Assembly (NCBI GenBank): GCA_022841505.1 | Contig: JALHRK010000016.1 | Location: 1-40,125, forward strand | DNA from: Saprospiraceae bacterium | GTDB lineage: Bacteria > Bacteroidota > Bacteroidia > Chitinophagales > Saprospiraceae | Direction: 5' to 3' | DNA: 40,125 bases | Shown here: piece by piece, positions 3,935 through 32,944 of the stretch | How the letters are laid out: each line of letters starts with the position of its first letter | Position numbering within the stretch: position 1 is the stretch's first letter | Program-made: the position numbers and the translations under genes | Notes under the pieces: generated by a model | Database searches by the model: none | What the model saw: the letters and a program-made list of their open reading frames with translations, nothing else | Told to the model about the DNA's origin: nothing

Positions 3935-4045
3935 TTTTTTTACCACATAGTTCACAGTAGGGGTTTTCACATAGGTCACGTAGGCGGCATCCCAGTACTA
4001 TGTGTTCTATGTGAAAACAACTATGTGCCCTATGTGGTAAAAAAA
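3935..4045. repeat. Word-based inverted repeat, CACATAG type
   Basis: Outer arms TTTTTTTACCACATAG (3935-3950) and CTATGTGGTAAAAAAA (4030-4045) are perfectly complementary (16 bp). Inner arms GTTTTCACATAG (3963-3974) and CTATGTGAAAAC (4007-4018) add 12 bp. Each arm is made of four CACATAG-like words starting at 3944, 3953, 3968, 3977 on the left and 3998, 4007, 4021, 4030 on the right, giving spacings 9-15-9 and 9-14-9. As RNA, the U-run precedes the stem in both directions, so it is not a standard intrinsic terminator. It shares its layout with the element at 29893-29986. Confidence 0.85.
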
Positions 4046-4060
4046 ATAAAAACACAGCTA

Positions 4061-4753
4061 TTGGAAATTATCAAAGATCAAAAAACGGCCTTGCTGCTTG
4101 GCGCCTCCGGGTTGGTTGGCGGCTATTGCCTGCGGCTTTTGCTGGATCACGGCGCTTACGAAAAAGTGGTTGTGTTTACCCGCAGGGCATTGCCCGTTTC
4201 GCACAGCAAATTAGAGCAGCATGTGGTGGACTTTGACCTCCCCCAAACGTTTTCCCATTTGTTAAAAGGCGACGACTTGTATTGCTGCCTTGGCACCACC
4301 ATGGCAAAAGCAGGTAGCAAGGAAGCATTTTTCAAAGTGGATTATACCTATGCCTATGAGGTAGCGCGTGCTGCCGTTGAAAACGGAGTCAACCAGTTCC
4401 TGCTGGTGTCTTCGGTCGGCGCCGATGCCAATTCCATTTTTTATTACAGCCGGGTGAAAGGCGAGTTGGAAGACGCGGTGAAACAATTGCCTTTTTGGGC
4501 GGTTCATATTTTTCAACCTTCTGTCTTACTGGGTGAACGCAACGAAAACCGATGGGGTGAGCAGTGGGCAGCTAAAATCGGCAAGCGCATTGATGCCCTC
4601 ACCGGGGGCTTGTTGAGCAAATACCGTCCGGTAGAAGCCGAAGTTGTCGCCGCTGCGATGGTAAGTGTGGCGCAGCAATTTCAACCTGGGGTACAGGTCT
4701 ATCCTTCGCATTATTTACAACAACTTTCTGAGCAATTGCCGGCTATTCGGTGA
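4061..4753 (+). CDS. TIP30/HTATIP2-like NAD(P)-binding protein
   Basis: A Rossmann-fold protein of about 230 aa. The nucleotide-binding loop GASGLVGG lies close to the N-terminus, followed by VVVFTRR, LGTTMAKAGSKEAF, VSSVGADANS and the YSRVKGELE segment (YxxxK, as in atypical short-chain dehydrogenases). This order fits the HTATIP2/YwnB-like NAD(P)-binding family. The reaction is unknown. No ATG precedes the Rossmann motif. TTG at 4061 is used because it lies outside the upstream palindrome; GTG at 4025 is possible but would place the first codons inside the right arm of the repeat. The true start is uncertain. Confidence 0.82.
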   Translation: MEIIKDQKTALLLGASGLVGGYCLRLLLDHGAYEKVVVFTRRALPVSHSKLEQHVVDFDLPQTFSHLLKGDDLYCCLGTTMAKAGSKEAFFKVDYTYAYEVARAAVENGVNQFLLVSSVGADANSIFYYSRVKGELEDAVKQLPFWAVHIFQPSVLLGERNENRWGEQWAAKIGKRIDALTGGLLSKYRPVEAEVVAAAMVSVAQQFQPGVQVYPSHYLQQLSEQLPAIR

Positions 4754-4754
4754 C

Positions 4755-4823
4755 GTGATGATCGGTTGTTAGTTACGTGTCGGACACTTCCAAAGTGTCC
4801 GACACGTAACAACCGATCATCAC
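4755..4823. repeat. Long hairpin between convergent genes
   Basis: TTACGTGTCGGACACTT (4773-4789) pairs perfectly with 4793-4809 around a 3-nt loop. After a 4-nt bulge, GTGATGATCGGTTG (4755-4768) pairs with 4810-4823, for 31 bp in all. It sits between convergent genes and its right arm contains the aldose epimerase stop codon (4820-4822). No T-run follows, so a bidirectional transcription-stopping or RNA 3'-end role is inferred rather than shown. Unlike other junctions here it shows no clear 7- or 9-base word period. Confidence 0.85.
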
Positions 4824-5758
4824 CCCGTGAATTCCATCCCAAATTTAGCGCGGATTTCTGCGCCCGGTTCTATCACCGCAAGGCCCTCCCCGTTGTTGAA
4901 GGCATCAATATTACAAGTCATAGGCTCAATCGCTATGGAGCCGCGGTGAGCCGGCGTGAAAACTTGCAAAAAATTGAATTTACCCGGCCCGGTTTCCTGC
5001 CAAAAGCGCAATTCATGGCTTTCCCGGCGAAGGAAAATTTCAGCAATGCCTTCTGCATCAGGCAGCGCAAAACAGTTGTCCAGCACGGTTGTTCCAATTT
5101 TTTTGAAAACGGCAAATTCGTCGTACGCGTACCGTTTACCGGTTGGAATCATCGCTGAATCAATGCCGACCAATTGGCAGTCTGGCATCTGCAAGGCGGT
5201 GTCTTTTATCTGATCATAACCGAGATGAAAATAGGGATGCCAGCCCAAACCTGCCGGGAGCGCGCGGTCTCCATCATTGCGGAAAGCCAGCGTAATCGTA
5301 AGCCGCCCTGGGTGCTCGATTTTAAAAACAGCCGTAAACGTAAAAGGAAAGGGGTAGTAGGGATAGTCGCCTTCGCTTTGAAACTGGCAAACCGCCGTTG
5401 CTTCATTTTCGCCCACTTCATAACCAATGAGTTCGATGTCTTTGTCCATCCCCAAACCATGAAGCGCCGTGCCGGTCGCCGGATCGTTGACTGGAAATTC
5501 AAAAATTTCACCCCCCCATTCATAACGGCCATCGCGCAGGCGGTTTGGGAAAGGAAACAGCATCCCGCTTTTCCCCCAGTTGTTTATCGAAGCTTCCACA
5601 GGCGTTTTACAGCCATCTAAGACCGGCCTTCCGTGGAGCACCAGGTCGGTCAGACAAGCCCCGCAACCCGGAACCAGCGAAAAAAGCGTTTTGCCGGAAG
5701 CATGCTGGAAAATATGTTTTTCATATTTGCCAAAAGAAACGAGTTGGTGCCTGAACAT
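4820..5758 (-). CDS. Aldose 1-epimerase family protein
   Basis: A 312-aa galactose-mutarotase-like protein that would interconvert alpha and beta anomers of a sugar. Recognisable elements are FPFPNRLRDGRYEW (substrate-binding Arg region), TALHGLGMDKD (first catalytic-site His), GLGWHPYFHL (second His) and AIEPMTCNIDAFNNGEGL (catalytic Glu). No signal peptide is seen. ATG at 5758 is preferred because an AGGA-like sequence lies just upstream; the TTG at 5800 would add an unlikely hydrophobic stretch. The gene stands alone on this strand, convergent with the TIP30-like gene, so the sugar cannot be deduced from context. Confidence 0.88.
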   Translation of the reverse strand: MFRHQLVSFGKYEKHIFQHASGKTLFSLVPGCGACLTDLVLHGRPVLDGCKTPVEASINNWGKSGMLFPFPNRLRDGRYEWGGEIFEFPVNDPATGTALHGLGMDKDIELIGYEVGENEATAVCQFQSEGDYPYYPFPFTFTAVFKIEHPGRLTITLAFRNDGDRALPAGLGWHPYFHLGYDQIKDTALQMPDCQLVGIDSAMIPTGKRYAYDEFAVFKKIGTTVLDNCFALPDAEGIAEIFLRRESHELRFWQETGPGKFNFLQVFTPAHRGSIAIEPMTCNIDAFNNGEGLAVIEPGAEIRAKFGMEFTG

Positions 5759-10981: not shown

Positions 10982-11038
10982 CGACATGTTTGCCGGCTTA
11001 TGCAGACAATTCAACGTCAAAATGCTGTAATAAAACAA

Positions 11039-11725
11039 ATGGGAAACCTGATCGTTCACCTTTCCGGCGCTTCCATACGCCAACAAGACAACCTTGTGCT
11101 AACCGATGTGGGCCTGAAAATCTCCAAAGGGGAGTTCGTTTATCTGGTTGGCCGCACCGGCAGCGGGAAGTCAAGCCTGTTGAAAACCATCTACGCTGCG
11201 CTTGCCTTAGAAGAGGGCAGGGGAGAAGTGGCTGATTTTGACCTGCGCAGCCTGACCCGTCATACCATTCCACTACTGCGCCGCAAGCTGGGAATTGTTT
11301 TTCAGGATTTTAACCTGTTGGCCGACCGGAACGTAGACCAAAATCTGCGGTTTGTCCTGTTGGCAACGGGCTGGAAAGACAAAGCCCTGATTGAGCAACG
11401 CATCGTGGAGGTGCTTAAACAAGTGGGCTTAGAAAAGGAGCGCTACCGGATGCCGCATGAACTTTCCGGTGGGGAACAGCAGCGGGTGGTCATTGCGCGT
11501 GCCTTACTGAACCGGCCGGAGCTCATCATTGCGGATGAACCGACCGGCAACCTTGACCCGGAGACCTCGGACGATATTTTGTTGCTCTTGCGCCAATTGG
11601 CCCGGCAAAACAACACGGCTGTCCTGTTTGCGACCCACGATTACCGCATCATCGAGCGCTTTCCGGCCCGTATTGTGCGCTGTGTCAAGGGTCGGGTTGT
11701 CAGCGAAGAAGAGTTTGAACTCTAA
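11039..11725 (+). CDS. ftsE: FtsE-type ABC transporter ATPase
   Basis: An ABC ATPase of about 228 aa. It has Walker A GRTGSGKSS, Q-loop VFQDFNLL, signature LSGGEQQR, Walker B LIIADEPTGNLDP and H-loop FATHD. Size and the ADEPTGNLD motif fit FtsE/LolD-like ATPases; in Bacteroidota this form is usually FtsE, which with FtsX controls septal wall hydrolases. No ftsX is adjacent, so the name rests on sequence type alone. ATG at 11039 starts just before the first strand; ATG at 11000 is in frame and would add 13 residues. The gene diverges from ccmE. Confidence 0.85.
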   Translation: MGNLIVHLSGASIRQQDNLVLTDVGLKISKGEFVYLVGRTGSGKSSLLKTIYAALALEEGRGEVADFDLRSLTRHTIPLLRRKLGIVFQDFNLLADRNVDQNLRFVLLATGWKDKALIEQRIVEVLKQVGLEKERYRMPHELSGGEQQRVVIARALLNRPELIIADEPTGNLDPETSDDILLLLRQLARQNNTAVLFATHDYRIIERFPARIVRCVKGRVVSEEEFEL

Positions 11726-11728
11726 ATT

Positions 11729-11851
11729 GTGTCTGTTTTTAGAGTCCGATAGCTGCGTTATGCGAAGGCCCCGAAAACAGTCACTTACGCGAGTAAGCTC
11801 CCATTTTCGGGGCCTTCGCATGCCTTGCTCTCGAACTCTAAAATCAGACAC
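11729..11851. repeat. Repeated long hairpin, copy A
   Basis: Core 11738-11842. Stem GCGAAGGCCCCGAAAA (11762-11777) pairs fully with 11804-11819. An inner hairpin is CTTAC-GCGA-GTAAG (11784-11797). Outer arms GTGTCTGTTTTTAGAGT (11729-11745) and 11835-11851 match at 16 of 17 positions. Copy B at 31301-31403 has the same order and asymmetric flanks (GATAGCTGCGTTATGCGAAG on the + strand in both), with paired changes in the stem. Copy A lies 3 nt after the ftsE stop. No T-run follows the stem. Class unknown. Confidence 0.9.
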
Positions 11852-11870: not shown

Positions 11871-11926
11871 CATCTAACATCTAAAATCTAATATCTAAAA
11901 TCTTACATCTAACATCTTAATTCTAA
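11871..11926 (+). repeat. Tandem heptamer array (NATCTAA x8)
   Basis: Eight consecutive 7-base units: catctaa, catctaa, aatctaa, tatctaa, aatctta, catctaa, catctta, attctaa. The last A is the first base of the rmlC ATG, so the array forms the whole immediate leader of that gene. It is AT-rich with no Shine-Dalgarno. Function unknown; it resembles in period, not sequence, the heptanucleotide STRR repeats of filamentous cyanobacteria. Confidence 0.88.
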
Positions 11927-12474
11927 TGCCTACTGCCTTCCTTGAAACCGGATTTCCCGGCCTTATGCTGTTTGAACCCAATGTGATCGGAGACGATCGG
12001 GGTTATTTTTTTGAAAGCTACAGCCTGCGCGATTTTCACCGCGGCGGAATCAGCGTCGCATTTGTGCAGGACAACCAGGCCCGTTCCGGTTATGGCGTTT
12101 TGCGCGGATTGCATTACCAGGTCGCGCCTTATGCCCAGGCTAAGCTGGTGCGCATGCTCGTAGGCGAAGTGCTGGATGTTGTCGTTGATTTGCGTCCCCA
12201 TTCGCCCACTTACGGCCAGTCGTACAGCGTAGTCCTGAGCGCTGAAAACAAACGACAGTTGTTTGTCCCTCGCGGTTTTGCGCACGGTTATGTGGTCTTA
12301 AGTGAAACTGCGGAATTCTTTTACAAATGCGACAATTATTACTCCCGCCCCCACGAAGGCGGCCTGCGTTACGACGATCCCGCGTTGAATATTGACTGGC
12401 AAATTCCTGCCGCCGACATCGCCCTTTCGGAAAAGGATCGGCTTTGGCCGAAATTTGGGGAGCACCGGGTTTAG
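11926..12474 (+). CDS. rfbC: dTDP-4-dehydrorhamnose 3,5-epimerase (RmlC)
   Basis: Cupin-fold epimerase of 182 aa, which would convert dTDP-4-keto-6-deoxyglucose to dTDP-4-keto-rhamnose for surface polysaccharide. Motifs are DDRGYFFESYS, FVQDNQARS, VLRGLHYQ (catalytic His63), VLDVVVDLRPHSPTYG, FVPRGFAHGYVVLSE and FYKCDNYYS (active-site Tyr region). Length is normal and the protein appears intact. No rmlA, rmlB or rmlD is nearby. It is bracketed by a heptamer array at its start codon and a heptamer palindrome starting at the base after its stop. Confidence 0.93.
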   Translation: MPTAFLETGFPGLMLFEPNVIGDDRGYFFESYSLRDFHRGGISVAFVQDNQARSGYGVLRGLHYQVAPYAQAKLVRMLVGEVLDVVVDLRPHSPTYGQSYSVVLSAENKRQLFVPRGFAHGYVVLSETAEFFYKCDNYYSRPHEGGLRYDDPALNIDWQIPAADIALSEKDRLWPKFGEHRV

Positions 12475-29892: not shown

Positions 29893-29986
29893 TTTCCCGC
29901 AAAGGGCGCGAAGGTTTCGCTAAGTCCGCAAAGCGTGACGCCCTCCTTAGCGCCCTTTGCGAGGCCTTAGCGAACTTTGCGGGAAA
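29893..29986. repeat. Word-based inverted repeat, CGCAAAG type
   Basis: Outer arms TTTCCCGCAAAG (29893-29904) and CTTTGCGGGAAA (29975-29986) are perfectly complementary. Each arm holds four words, at 29898, 29907, 29918, 29927 on the left (CGCAAAG, CGCGAAG, CGCTAAG, CGCAAAG) and 29946, 29955, 29966, 29975 on the right (CTTAGCG, CTTTGCG, CTTAGCG, CTTTGCG). Spacing is exactly 9-11-9 on both arms. This mirrors the CACATAG element at 3935-4045. It lies between ribB and the VTC gene, 24 bp before the latter. Confidence 0.88.
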
Positions 29987-30662: not shown

Positions 30663-31277
30663 TTACCACTTCAGGGCCTGTGGCCCTTCCCGAACCACTT
30701 CAGGTTCATTGCCCGTATTGTTGATGAGCGCCGAAGGCAGGATGCCGCCGGGTCCGCTGTCAATGACAACGTCCACCAATTTTTTATAAATTTCGTAAAT
30801 TTCCGTAGGATCGGTATAGTATTCCAGAATGTCGTCATCCGATTTAAGGGAAGTCGTCAGGATTGGGCGCCCCAGCTCCTCCACAAGATCGAGGGGTACC
30901 CGGTGGTCTGGGATACGCACCCCGATCGTATTTTTTTTGTTTTTCAGCAGCTTGGGCAGGTCATTGTTCGCTTCCAGAATAAAGGTAAACGGCCCCGGCA
31001 GGTTGTTGCGGAGCAATTTGAACGTTGGGGTATTGATCGGTTTAGTATAAATGGCAATCTGGCTGATGTCCTTGCAAATACAGGAAAGCATCGCTTTTGC
31101 CGGGTCAAGCTTGCGAAGCTGGCAAATGCGCTCAACCGCCTTTTGCTGAAAAATGTCGCACCCGAGGGCATAAACGGTATCGGTCGGATAAATGATGATT
31201 CCACCTTTGCGTAAAATCTCCACAACCTGGCTGATCTTTCTGCCTTCGGGATTGATAGGATTGATGTTTAGAAGCAT
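30663..31277 (-). CDS. YciO/Sua5 family protein (threonylcarbamoyl-AMP synthase-like)
   Basis: A 204-aa YrdC-fold protein. Typical blocks are GGIIIYPTDTVYALGCDI, ERICQLRKLDPAKAMLSCICKDIS, LPGPFTFILEAN, NTIGVRIPDH, GRPILTTSLKSDDD and VDVVIDSGPGG. Length and the spacing NPEGRKISQVVEILRKGG fit the YciO subgroup, close to but distinct from TsaC/Sua5, which make threonylcarbamoyl-AMP for tRNA t6A. Its exact substrate is therefore uncertain. The start at 31277 has the expected N-terminus. Copy B of the repeated hairpin lies directly upstream. Confidence 0.88.
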   Translation of the reverse strand: MLLNINPINPEGRKISQVVEILRKGGIIIYPTDTVYALGCDIFQQKAVERICQLRKLDPAKAMLSCICKDISQIAIYTKPINTPTFKLLRNNLPGPFTFILEANNDLPKLLKNKKNTIGVRIPDHRVPLDLVEELGRPILTTSLKSDDDILEYYTDPTEIYEIYKKLVDVVIDSGPGGILPSALINNTGNEPEVVREGPQALKW

Positions 31278-31294
31278 GGTCCGCTGATTTATCG

Positions 31295-31410
31295 TCTGTC
31301 TTTAGAATCCGATAGCTGCGTTATGCGAAGACCCAAAAAGCGTCATTTACACGAGTAAACTCCGATTTTTGGGTCTTCGCATGCCTTGCTCTCGAACTCT
31401 AAAGCCGAGA
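31295..31410. repeat. Repeated long hairpin, copy B
   Basis: Core 31301-31403. Stem GCGAAGACCCAAAAA (31325-31339) pairs fully with 31366-31380. The inner hairpin is TTTAC-ACGA-GTAAA (31346-31359). Compared with copy A, two G-C stem pairs became A-T, one C-G pair is missing from both arms, and the inner C-G pair became T-A, so pairing is kept. The flanks GATAGCTGCGTTATGCGAAG and GCATGCCTTGCTCTCGAAC are identical to copy A. It lies between two minus-strand genes, 17 bp upstream of the YciO-like start. Confidence 0.9.
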
Positions 31411-31462
31411 CTCTGAACTAAATGAGCAAGCACTATTCAGTACTTTGTCGCGAATCTACACA

Positions 31463-32944
31463 TCAATCCTCATCTTCGTCAAATAAATCGTCGTCGCCGA
31501 GCATATTGGCCAGTACATCCCGGAAAGAAAAGCTGGATTCCAGGGTTTCTTTGCTCAAAATATTGAATGTGGCTAACCCGTGCAGGACTAACTCCATGTA
31601 GGTATAAACTTCGGGCCCCTGAATTTTCATGACTTGTTCCACCAATTTGCGCAAACCGGCTACCTTATCCAGAGCAGCATGAAAGTCGGCATCGCTGCAA
31701 TCGTTCATCAGGTCAATCGTATTTCCGCCGGCAAACCAGGCACGGGTTGCCCCGTACGGGTCGCGATCCTGTCCTTTTTTAAGGCGATCCGGGTTGGGAA
31801 AGTGTTCCAGAAACATCGTTTTGATGGCCTGATTCAACAAGACCATGGCCACGGCATAAGGCCCTTCCTGCTCGCCTTCATAGACCAATTCGACCTTGCC
31901 GGTAATGGCAGGCACGATGCCCCAGAAATCGGTGATCCGGGCCGATGTTTTGGTTTCTCCGTTGATGAGCATACGTCGTTCGGCGGTACTGACTAAGTTT
32001 TCGAAAGCAGAAATGCTCAAACGGGCCGACACGCCGCTTTTATCGTCCACCAATTCGCTGTCCCGGGCCTCAAAAGCAATGCGCTCCAGCAGAATGTGCA
32101 ACACTTCCGGCATGGCAATCGCCTCTTTTTGTTCCTCCGCTAATTGGGCTTCCTGCTTTGTGATGCGTTGGGCAATTTCTATGGTTTTTGGATAGTGGGT
32201 GAGGATCTGGCTTTCGATGCGGTCTTTCAGCGGCGTAATGATGCTGCCCCTGTTGGTATAATCCTCCGGGTTGGCCGTGAACAAAAATTCGATGTCCAAC
32301 GGTAAACGAAGTTTGAACCCGCGAATTTGCAAATCGCCTTCTTCCAGGATGTTAAACAAGGACACCTGAATGCGTGCCTGAAGGTCGGGCAACTCGTTGA
32401 TCACAAAAATGCTGCGGTGCGCCCGGGGTACCAGGCCAAAGTGGATGACCCGTTCGTCGGAGTAGGGGAGCTTGAGGGTCGCAGCTTTGATCGGGTCCAC
32501 ATCGCCAATCAGGTCGGCCACGCTCACATCAGGGGTCGCCAATTTTTCTACATACCGGGCGCTTCGGTGCAACCAGTCCACCGGCGTGGCGTCGCCCATT
32601 TCGGCAATGAGGTCTTTACCATACCTGGATAATGGCTGCATGGGATCGTCATTCAATTCGCTTCCGGCGATCACTGGCACGTACTCGTCGAGCAAATTAA
32701 TGAGCAACCTGGCGATCCGGGTCTTTGCCTGGCCGCGCAAACCAAGGAGCAGGATGTTGTGGCAAGACAAGACCGCTCGCTCGATATCGGGCAATACAGT
32801 ATCTTCAAATCCAATGATGCCTTCAAATACTTTTTCCTTCGATTTTAATTTACCGATCAGATTGGCTCTCAATTCTGCTTTGATAGAGCGCGGTTGGTAT
32901 CCACTTGCTTTCAGCTCGCCAAGTGTTACGGCCCGATTTGTCAT
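31463..32944 (-). CDS. MoxR/ChlI-like AAA+ ATPase
   Basis: A 493-aa AAA+ protein of the MoxR/magnesium-chelatase-like group. Walker A is unusual: G68-L-R-G-Q-A-K-T75 (Ala for the second Gly). The Walker B region reads IFVINELPDL with Asn for the usual Asp. ILEEGDLQIRGFKLRLPLDIEFLFTANPEDYTNRG includes the sensor region, and ITPLKDRIESQI follows. The C-terminal part is helical and ends in an acidic tail (DDDLFDEDED). Such ATPases usually act with a VWA-domain partner as a chaperone or activator; no VWA gene is adjacent. A chelatase role is unlikely from context. Start ATG at 32944 is clear. Confidence 0.85.
   Translation of the reverse strand: MTNRAVTLGELKASGYQPRSIKAELRANLIGKLKSKEKVFEGIIGFEDTVLPDIERAVLSCHNILLLGLRGQAKTRIARLLINLLDEYVPVIAGSELNDDPMQPLSRYGKDLIAEMGDATPVDWLHRSARYVEKLATPDVSVADLIGDVDPIKAATLKLPYSDERVIHFGLVPRAHRSIFVINELPDLQARIQVSLFNILEEGDLQIRGFKLRLPLDIEFLFTANPEDYTNRGSIITPLKDRIESQILTHYPKTIEIAQRITKQEAQLAEEQKEAIAMPEVLHILLERIAFEARDSELVDDKSGVSARLSISAFENLVSTAERRMLINGETKTSARITDFWGIVPAITGKVELVYEGEQEGPYAVAMVLLNQAIKTMFLEHFPNPDRLKKGQDRDPYGATRAWFAGGNTIDLMNDCSDADFHAALDKVAGLRKLVEQVMKIQGPEVYTYMELVLHGLATFNILSKETLESSFSFRDVLANMLGDDDLFDEDED

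Follow-up and report, generated by a model that had tools for sequence, protein, structure and literature searches.

Bacterial MITEs such as ERIC, RUP and Correia/NEMIS are palindromic elements of 100-200 bp that bear target repeats and often lie beside genes, as far as the excerpts of two accounts used here describe them (PMC2229807, PMC3733652), and the excerpt of the first account has ERIC elements altering upstream transcripts depending on their orientation (PMC2229807). REP elements, which are associated with RAYT proteins, are high-copy intergenic palindromes that form a strand-specific hairpin, and their recognition is single-stranded according to the excerpt of the second account (PMC3733652). 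Here we describe an imperfect palindrome of about 142 bp from a genome of the Saprospiraceae (G000). It shares size, palindromic form, gene adjacency and, in some copies, target repeats with ERIC, RUP and Correia/NEMIS as those excerpts portray them, but it combines a core kept under changing ends with an exact position at stop codons, which the same excerpts do not mention for the three families (PMC2229807, PMC3733652). In comparison with REP elements and RAYT, it likewise is a high-copy intergenic palindrome with a strand-specific hairpin, but it is longer, has a partly preserved target-site repeat and has no RAYT gene beside its copies, and no GTAG-type tag was seen by eye at the hairpin foot in the copies inspected. 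Among titles and abstract openings of the open-licence literature we found neither the stop-codon placement nor the common core described. The kind of element, a small palindromic mobile repeat, is a known one, and its apparent novelty would lie in a wide-ranging core under changing ends and in the exact placement at stop codons.

Two further families resemble the core itself. sX9 (Rfam RF02228), a Xanthomonas sRNA, is like the element in the apical hairpin and the motif that follows it (AUGUAC..GUACACUCCGG, ...CCGUCCG), on the gene-sense strand. The sX9 model matches the core of nine of the 12 phylum-sample loci scanned (L372, L373, L375, L377, L390, L393, L399, L402 and L410), all of the matches falling at the core position of the gene-sense strand and every score lying below the gathering score (best 35.6 bits versus 44, E 0.0021). 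It gave no match at L371, L374, L406 or the order-level relative L115, nor, at E up to 5, at the core of the own copy B locus L030 or at L114 and L121, so the link to sX9 runs through the phylum-sample copies. Three E. coli loci also match sX9 below its cut-off. An E. coli intergenic repeat (for example L417 1501-1560, qseE-qseG, and L418 1501-1562, ycbX-rlmKL), which may be the 'box C' repeat, has 85-90% identity to a phylum-sample core over ~60 nt and the same apical motif. Our core model R2 finds its ycbX-rlmKL copy at E 1e-4, another copy at E 0.007 and the qseE copy in part only (E 0.23), and with a 121-nt E. coli query the repeat was located in 5375 of the 5426 genomes of that species, at a median of 5 places per genome. 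Behind qseE the repeat is codirectional, its start lying roughly 10-20 nt past the stop codon; it differs from the element in its other outer arms, its few copies and the position of the ycbX-rlmKL copy, which lies upstream of rlmKL and not behind a stop. These likenesses suggest that sX9 and the E. coli repeat are distant homologues of the element, related to it by common descent. A preliminary description of the locus had found no repeat class to match it; this needs qualifying in view of the two apparent relatives, although neither family can take in the element, and Rfam at gathering score returned nothing in the window or in eight other loci.

The window is the whole stretch analysed, 40,125 nucleotides of contig JALHRK010000016.1 (assembly GCA_022841505.1). 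It holds two copies of the element, A and B, together with the following features.

11000..11725, + strand: FtsE-like ABC ATPase ORF, immediately upstream of copy A (Pfam ABC_tran; best NCBIfam hit FtsE, 223 bits, below its cut-off of 264.85)
11723..11728, + strand: TAAATT, the stop TAA of the FtsE-like ORF plus 3 nt, presumed left target copy (the element-free sister genome G001 has a TAA stop at the same place)
11729..11851, + strand: copy A in the extent of model R1, with left end, hairpin core and right arm to the first CAGACAC (cmsearch R1, 134.2 bits, and comparison of copies)
11738..11842, + strand: copy A core, whose better folding strand is the - strand
11760..11821, + strand: main stem and inner hairpin CTTAC/GTAAG of copy A (inverted repeat I2, fold)
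11926..12474, + strand: dTDP-4-dehydrorhamnose 3,5-epimerase, downstream of copy A (family matches)
30663..31277, - strand: L-threonylcarbamoyladenylate synthase, its start adjoining the left end of copy B (family matches)
31286..31291, + strand: GATTTA, left flank of copy B (right flank TATTCA at 31434-31439; no clean target duplication)
31292..31433, + strand: copy B including its 3' tail ACTAAATGAGCAAGCAC (cmsearch R1, 134.0 bits for 31292-31413; tail matched in L030)
31301..31403, + strand: copy B core (sequence read, fold)
31463..32944, - strand: Mg-chelatase-like AAA ATPase, its stop facing the right end of copy B (weak family matches)

Both hairpins that the preliminary description reported, at 11738-11842 and 31301-31403, were confirmed on reading the sequence, as were the four paired changes between them: GGC/GCC to GAC/GTC, CG/CG to CA/TG, one C-G pair gone from both arms, and an inner hairpin pair changed from C-G to T-A. 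These positions are real but mark only the middle of a longer element that starts with GTGTCTG at 11729 (copy A) and TCGTCTG at 31292 (copy B). The flanks and asymmetric parts had been called identical; the flanks in fact read TTTTTAGAGT and CTTTAGAAT, and a few unpaired bases beside the inner hairpin also differ. The element is palindromic over its whole length, with ends GTGTCTGTC...GACAGACAC, and alignment of own-genome copies gives the layout GTGTCTGTCTTTATAGTCCGATAGCTGCGTTATGCGAAGG plus stem, inner hairpin, and stem plus CCTTCGCATGCCTTGCTCTCGAACTCTAAAGAACAGACACC.GACTAAATGGACAGACAC. Comparison of copies indicates that the better-kept ones finish with a second GACAGACAC ~20 nt past the first, in a 3' tail that is not recognisable in copy A. 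The core, with two conserved internal loops, is kept while the outer arms vary by group, beginning GTGTCTGTC... here and GGGTGCTTCTAAAAACC... in genome G061, and reading as GGGCACCTCTAAAAA in many phylum-sample copies.

That the two copies might be the only ones in the genome is not borne out. A pattern search of the own genome with one 25-base part, allowing up to 3 mismatches, gave 145 matches and its reversed control none, and R1, a covariance model built from 40 copies, has at least 150 matches there, since the best 150 of 2357 first-look candidates all match. As in a MITE, small size (about 142 bp) is thus joined to many copies, and the ends are terminal inverted repeats, GTGTCTGTC/GACAGACAC in the own genome and other paired ends elsewhere.

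Not one of 200 shuffles folds as well as the two window copies, the RNA z-scores of which are -12.2 and -8.5 on the + strand and -13.0 and -10.9 on the - strand. The - strand also has the lower RNA energy (-79.5 versus -66.7 kcal/mol for copy A, -64.1 versus -50.6 for copy B). Two kinds of hairpin were set aside by eye: the element is not an intrinsic terminator, since no T run stands behind the hairpin, the following sequence being CTCTAAAGAACAGACAC, and an integron attC site has its box order the other way round, although GTTATGC is present.

A covariance model with a genome scan bears out the proposal that the paired changes reflect selection on a folded nucleic acid. Copies are many and their pairing is kept, with two-sided changes in 12 of 33 pairs against a shuffled mean of 4.8, a value reached in none of 500 shuffles. 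In an alignment of 27 cores from four genomes (G000, G001, G058 and G061), 24 of 32 pairs show two-sided changes, which occupy 142 cells against 42 after shuffling, and the covariation is 0.515 as compared with 0.03-0.18 for slid partners. Compensatory changes therefore exceed both shuffles and slid controls, as befits a structured RNA or single-stranded DNA, and they do so within the genome and across the four genomes, with covariation seen also in a wide sample. These alignments were pruned: A2 omits six of 46 extracted copies (one truncated, five with inserts), A6 omits two reverse-strand rows, and A7 omits four rows (two reverse-strand, one cut, one repeated locus) as well as identical rows.

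Mispairs indicate which strand is folded. When the strand antisense to the upstream gene is read, 104 distinct aligned copies hold 190 G-T mispairs and 42 A-C mispairs, in an alignment that was fitted to a model of that same strand and whose copies are related and so not independent. Leaving out one pair that is mostly T-G brings the figures to 125 and 41, with 22 pairs having more G-T and five more A-C; an earlier set of 107 rows gave 160 and 52, 90 of these G-T coming from one pair. In RNA energy the antisense strand lies below its complement in 103 of the 104 copies, and it is probably the folded one. Mutation is blind to the folding strand, so the G-T excess argues for selection on one single strand, be it RNA or DNA, and homogenisation of the arms alone would not give such an excess. 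In the wide sample conservation is highest within the two asymmetric parts, over CTGCGTTATG / GCATGCCTTG, or CAAGGC.TG / CATAACGCAG on the other strand. The parts under strongest conservation have little or no pairing and read, on the better folding strand, CAAGGC.TG opposite CATAACGCAG and, around the apical hairpin, GGAG-TTTAC-NNNN-GTAAA-TGA. It is plausible from this conservation that a protein recognises the asymmetric parts, as had been proposed.

A second property of the element is its position. The 3' end of the upstream gene faces the left end in 58 of 67 own-genome copies, within 60 nt in 51 of these 58. Counted from the first base of the stop that ends a codirectional ORF, the element begins 2-9 nt downstream in 58 of 80 own-genome copies (60 of 80 by a slightly different count). 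ORFs were called mechanically at 100 codons or more, copies with under 300-500 nt of upstream sequence were omitted, and the copies, being related by descent, are not independent observations. A few loci appear in more than one set (L160 and L178 are one orthologous place, and L319 repeats L119). The two commonest cases are a TAG at -2, the G of which is the first base of the element (25 copies), and a TAA at -6 (13 copies), and a stop occurs at the same offsets in 14 of 188 TAAWTA sites outside elements. The right end touches the stop of an opposite gene in 11 of 43 copies, so what is preferred is a gene end, met far more often by the left end of the element than by the right. Three sets from elsewhere show the same bias: 22 of 37 copies against 0.64 expected and 2 on the opposite side (interval of ~15 nt), 29 of 59 against 2.9 and 5 (~60 nt), and 23 of 45 against 3.9 and 9 (~45 nt). 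Copy A is of the stop-codon type, behind the FtsE-like gene, and copy B is not at a stop codon.

Element-free counterparts in the sister species G001 make two native stop codons visible as targets. At the site of copy A, with codons read by hand, G001 has the empty site ...GAAGAGTTTGAAATT-TAA-TCACC where the own genome has ...GAAGAGTTTGAACTC-TAA-ATT-GTGTCTG. At the site of the copy on contig C178, the empty GGA-AAA-TAA-GCTTATGTTC of G001 corresponds to GGA-AAA-TA|G-TGGTGCC... in the own genome, so TA and the element's G restored a stop, and the protein end is alike in both genomes (SGYIELL.GGK*). A third empty site in the sister species is not at a stop codon. The flanking 6-mers are identical on left and right in 10 of 45 copies (TAATTA in 6, TAAATA in 3, TATTAA in 1), where 3.5 are expected for shuffled pairs; a first test gave 9 of 37 against 2.5. 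Concordance exceeds chance at positions 3-5 and is no better than chance at 1, 2 and 6, consistent with a partly preserved 6-bp target repeat, TAAWTA. The right copy fits this consensus better than the left, so the duplication may measure 6 bp or just a 2-bp TA, or the right site may be borne by the element.

Copies have also changed in place. Insertions L023/L113 and L046/L118 are common to species and have the same upstream flank, and several of their stem positions differ on both arms, which suggests either copy-to-copy exchange or rapid paired change. In genomes of another class (L374, L376 and L402) the element lies behind the same gene, the proteins being about 89% identical; one outer-stem pair is C-G, T-A and A-T among these three, its neighbour is G-T in one, and another has one mismatch. 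At L375 and L406 it lies behind another shared gene (83% identity over 52 residues), and here the outer stem differs yet is fully paired and runs through the stop codon. Orthologous retention with compensated stems favours a constraint acting at the site.

The distribution was surveyed by scoring the best 150, 44 or 10 candidates per genome, so all counts are lower bounds and a genome without a match need not lack the element. R1 matches at least four of 80 relatives, the own genome included. R2 finds multi-copy relatives in at least 31 of 395 genomes and 22 of 197 genera of a class sample, and in at least 44 of 395 genomes of a phylum sample, 40 of which belong to one family of another class. 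An exact core motif, searched in one genome per species, occurs in at least 109 stretches. The 80 of these that were listed are by title nearly all from Bacteroidota, among them Marinilabilia, Cryomorpha, Alistipes, Barnesiella, Parabacteroides and Chitinophaga, the exceptions being two 'Chlorobiota' contigs, one 'Chromatiaceae' and one bacterium MAG. Two exact patterns had 0 matches in viral contigs. In a plasmid collection one 251-base core query found no match, and another core query, at E up to 1, found 22 records, mostly enterobacterial.

The high copy number, inverted ends, partly kept target repeat, empty sites and a distribution that is patchy among the best-scored candidates all point to mobility. 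With a probability of roughly 0.55, we favour the reading that this is a non-autonomous, MITE-like mobile hairpin, a selfish element that is moved in trans, is read as a single strand and lands harmlessly at stop codons. The folded strand, which runs antisense to the upstream gene, would be recognised in the form of a single-strand hairpin by a protein supplied in trans. The element would insert into the TA of a TAA or TAG stop, or just behind a TAA, and its first base, G, would complete the TA to a new TAG, leaving the host gene unaltered in frame and length. We propose that covariation of the stems reflects the need of the hairpin to stay foldable if it is to be recognised, and that the loops carry the sequence signal. 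Against mobility stand the exact target repeat in only 10 of 45 copies, the position of copy B and of one of the three empty sites away from stops, and the lack of a recurring neighbour gene or of a mobiliser among the Y1_Tnp and DDE_Tnp_1 families searched.

The same stop-codon position, together with the fixed orientation, would also suit a host-selected 3'-end element, in which the hairpin acts in the mRNA (in stability, in processing or as a 3'-derived small RNA) and selection keeps those copies that lie at stops. The paired stems retained at orthologous places (L374, L376 and L402; L375 and L406) look like host function and count against mobility, as does the relative sX9, whose annotation is that of an sRNA from the opposite, gene-sense strand. 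The orientation-dependent effect of ERIC on upstream transcripts, as given in the excerpt cited (PMC2229807), offers a precedent. The gene-sense strand, however, is the one that folds worse in 103 of 104 copies, no T run was seen by eye after the hairpin, 76 of 80 relatives have no match among the candidates scored, and L023/L113 and L046/L118 show, from one species to the other, differences on both arms that look like an exchange of stretches among copies. We regard a 3'-end role as the main rival, less likely than the mobile reading; it and the mobile hairpin may each apply to different copies, and their odds overlap.

A bolder proposal, which we put forward tentatively and would not expect to hold, is that from Bacteroidota to Pseudomonadota this hairpin family finds gene ends, its insertion being guided to native stops, in frame and in orientation, by the sensing of transcription or translation termination, with the conserved core rather than the exchangeable ends as the guide. 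More generally, should the relationships described here hold, several dispersed intergenic repeats would belong, together with one or more annotated sRNAs, to one old family of structured elements, and exact stop-codon placement would represent either an unusual, host-harmless target choice of a mobile element or a widespread 3'-end function.

The special case of the mobile reading in which a Y1 tyrosine transposase moves the hairpin as single-stranded DNA, in a REP/RAYT or TIRYT system, seems unlikely. Y1-type enzymes read strand-specific folds and unpaired conserved positions, both of which the element offers, and 18 of 20 carrier genomes have Y1 genes. So, however, do 16 of 20 genomes without a match among the best candidates scored, and G061 and G229 carry cores and have no Y1 match. 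A link to a RAYT-type transposase, suggested in the preliminary description, fared no better in the own genome, where two Y1-transposase genes are each surrounded by different repeats of their own. These Y1/RAYT-like genes lie at L093 (G000:C308, about 3990-5110) and L094 (G000:C197, about 5100-5340); the nearby repeats, for example CGCAAGTCAGAGACTTGCC, have no R1 or R2 match, and the core nearest to an own Y1 gene lies ~2.4 kb from one of them. No core was found beside 30 further Y1 loci (16 from carriers and 14 from others, ~1.5 kb each side), no GTAG tag was seen by eye, and the target repeats argue for a double-strand cutter.

Three further comparisons yielded no mobiliser. The DDE_Tnp_1 family had no match in seven of 16 carrier genomes and 22 loci in the 16 together, one of which has a faintly similar end. 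An autonomous partner with the same ends was absent from these 22 loci and from the 20 fetched end sites that are not beside a listed core, in a draft assembly that may lack one; the own genome has 42 exact WAWTAGTGTCTGTC end sites, and the 20 regions fetched held core-bearing copies, relatives with another or no interior, or single ends. Among neighbouring genes there is no conspicuous candidate in either of two sets of loci: in the first at most three loci share a gene, and these overlap the element itself, and in the second at most six share one, which is ABC-transporter-like by eye.

Template switching or gene conversion between the arms, by which bacterial palindromes can be corrected, could make both arms change together between orthologous copies without selection, but is a most improbable source of the paired changes, because the internal loops have not been perfected but remain unpaired and conserved, and because the excess of G-T over A-C mispairs is not expected of a strand-symmetric process.

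Several observations concern neighbouring or related repeats. One DDE_Tnp_1 insertion sequence, with an IS4-like label (L192, G427:C49, 1215-2610), has 22-bp inverted ends, ATCATTAGTGTCCGGTAAAAGT, that contain TTAGTGTC as the element does, only that short stretch being common to the two. In gut Bacteroidales (L276, L284, L286, L299, L314 and L317) the right tail is like GGGGCTGCGCCAAAAT, with variants, and resembles an insertion-sequence end by eye, a lead towards a mobiliser. Among the own-genome relatives with the same ends and another or no interior, L134 (about 1970) and L144 (about 2039) are ~70-bp versions with both ends and no hairpin core, bounded by TAAATA-like sites. At L031, L038, L044, L055, L135 and L138 a second hairpin or half-hairpin (TTCGACTNCGCTCA, TGAGCGNAGTCGAA) is nested in copies, often behind TGCGTT or AGTCCGAT. 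Within the window, AT-rich short repeats (ATCTAACATCTAAAATCTAATATC...) occupy 11871-11932 directly behind copy A, and similar strings follow another copy (L016). Positions 29893-29986 hold another long inverted repeat, with 41-nt arms that are 78% complementary (TTTCCCGCAAAGGGCGCGAAGG...) and a weak R1 match (E 0.036), and it possibly belongs to a different repeat class.
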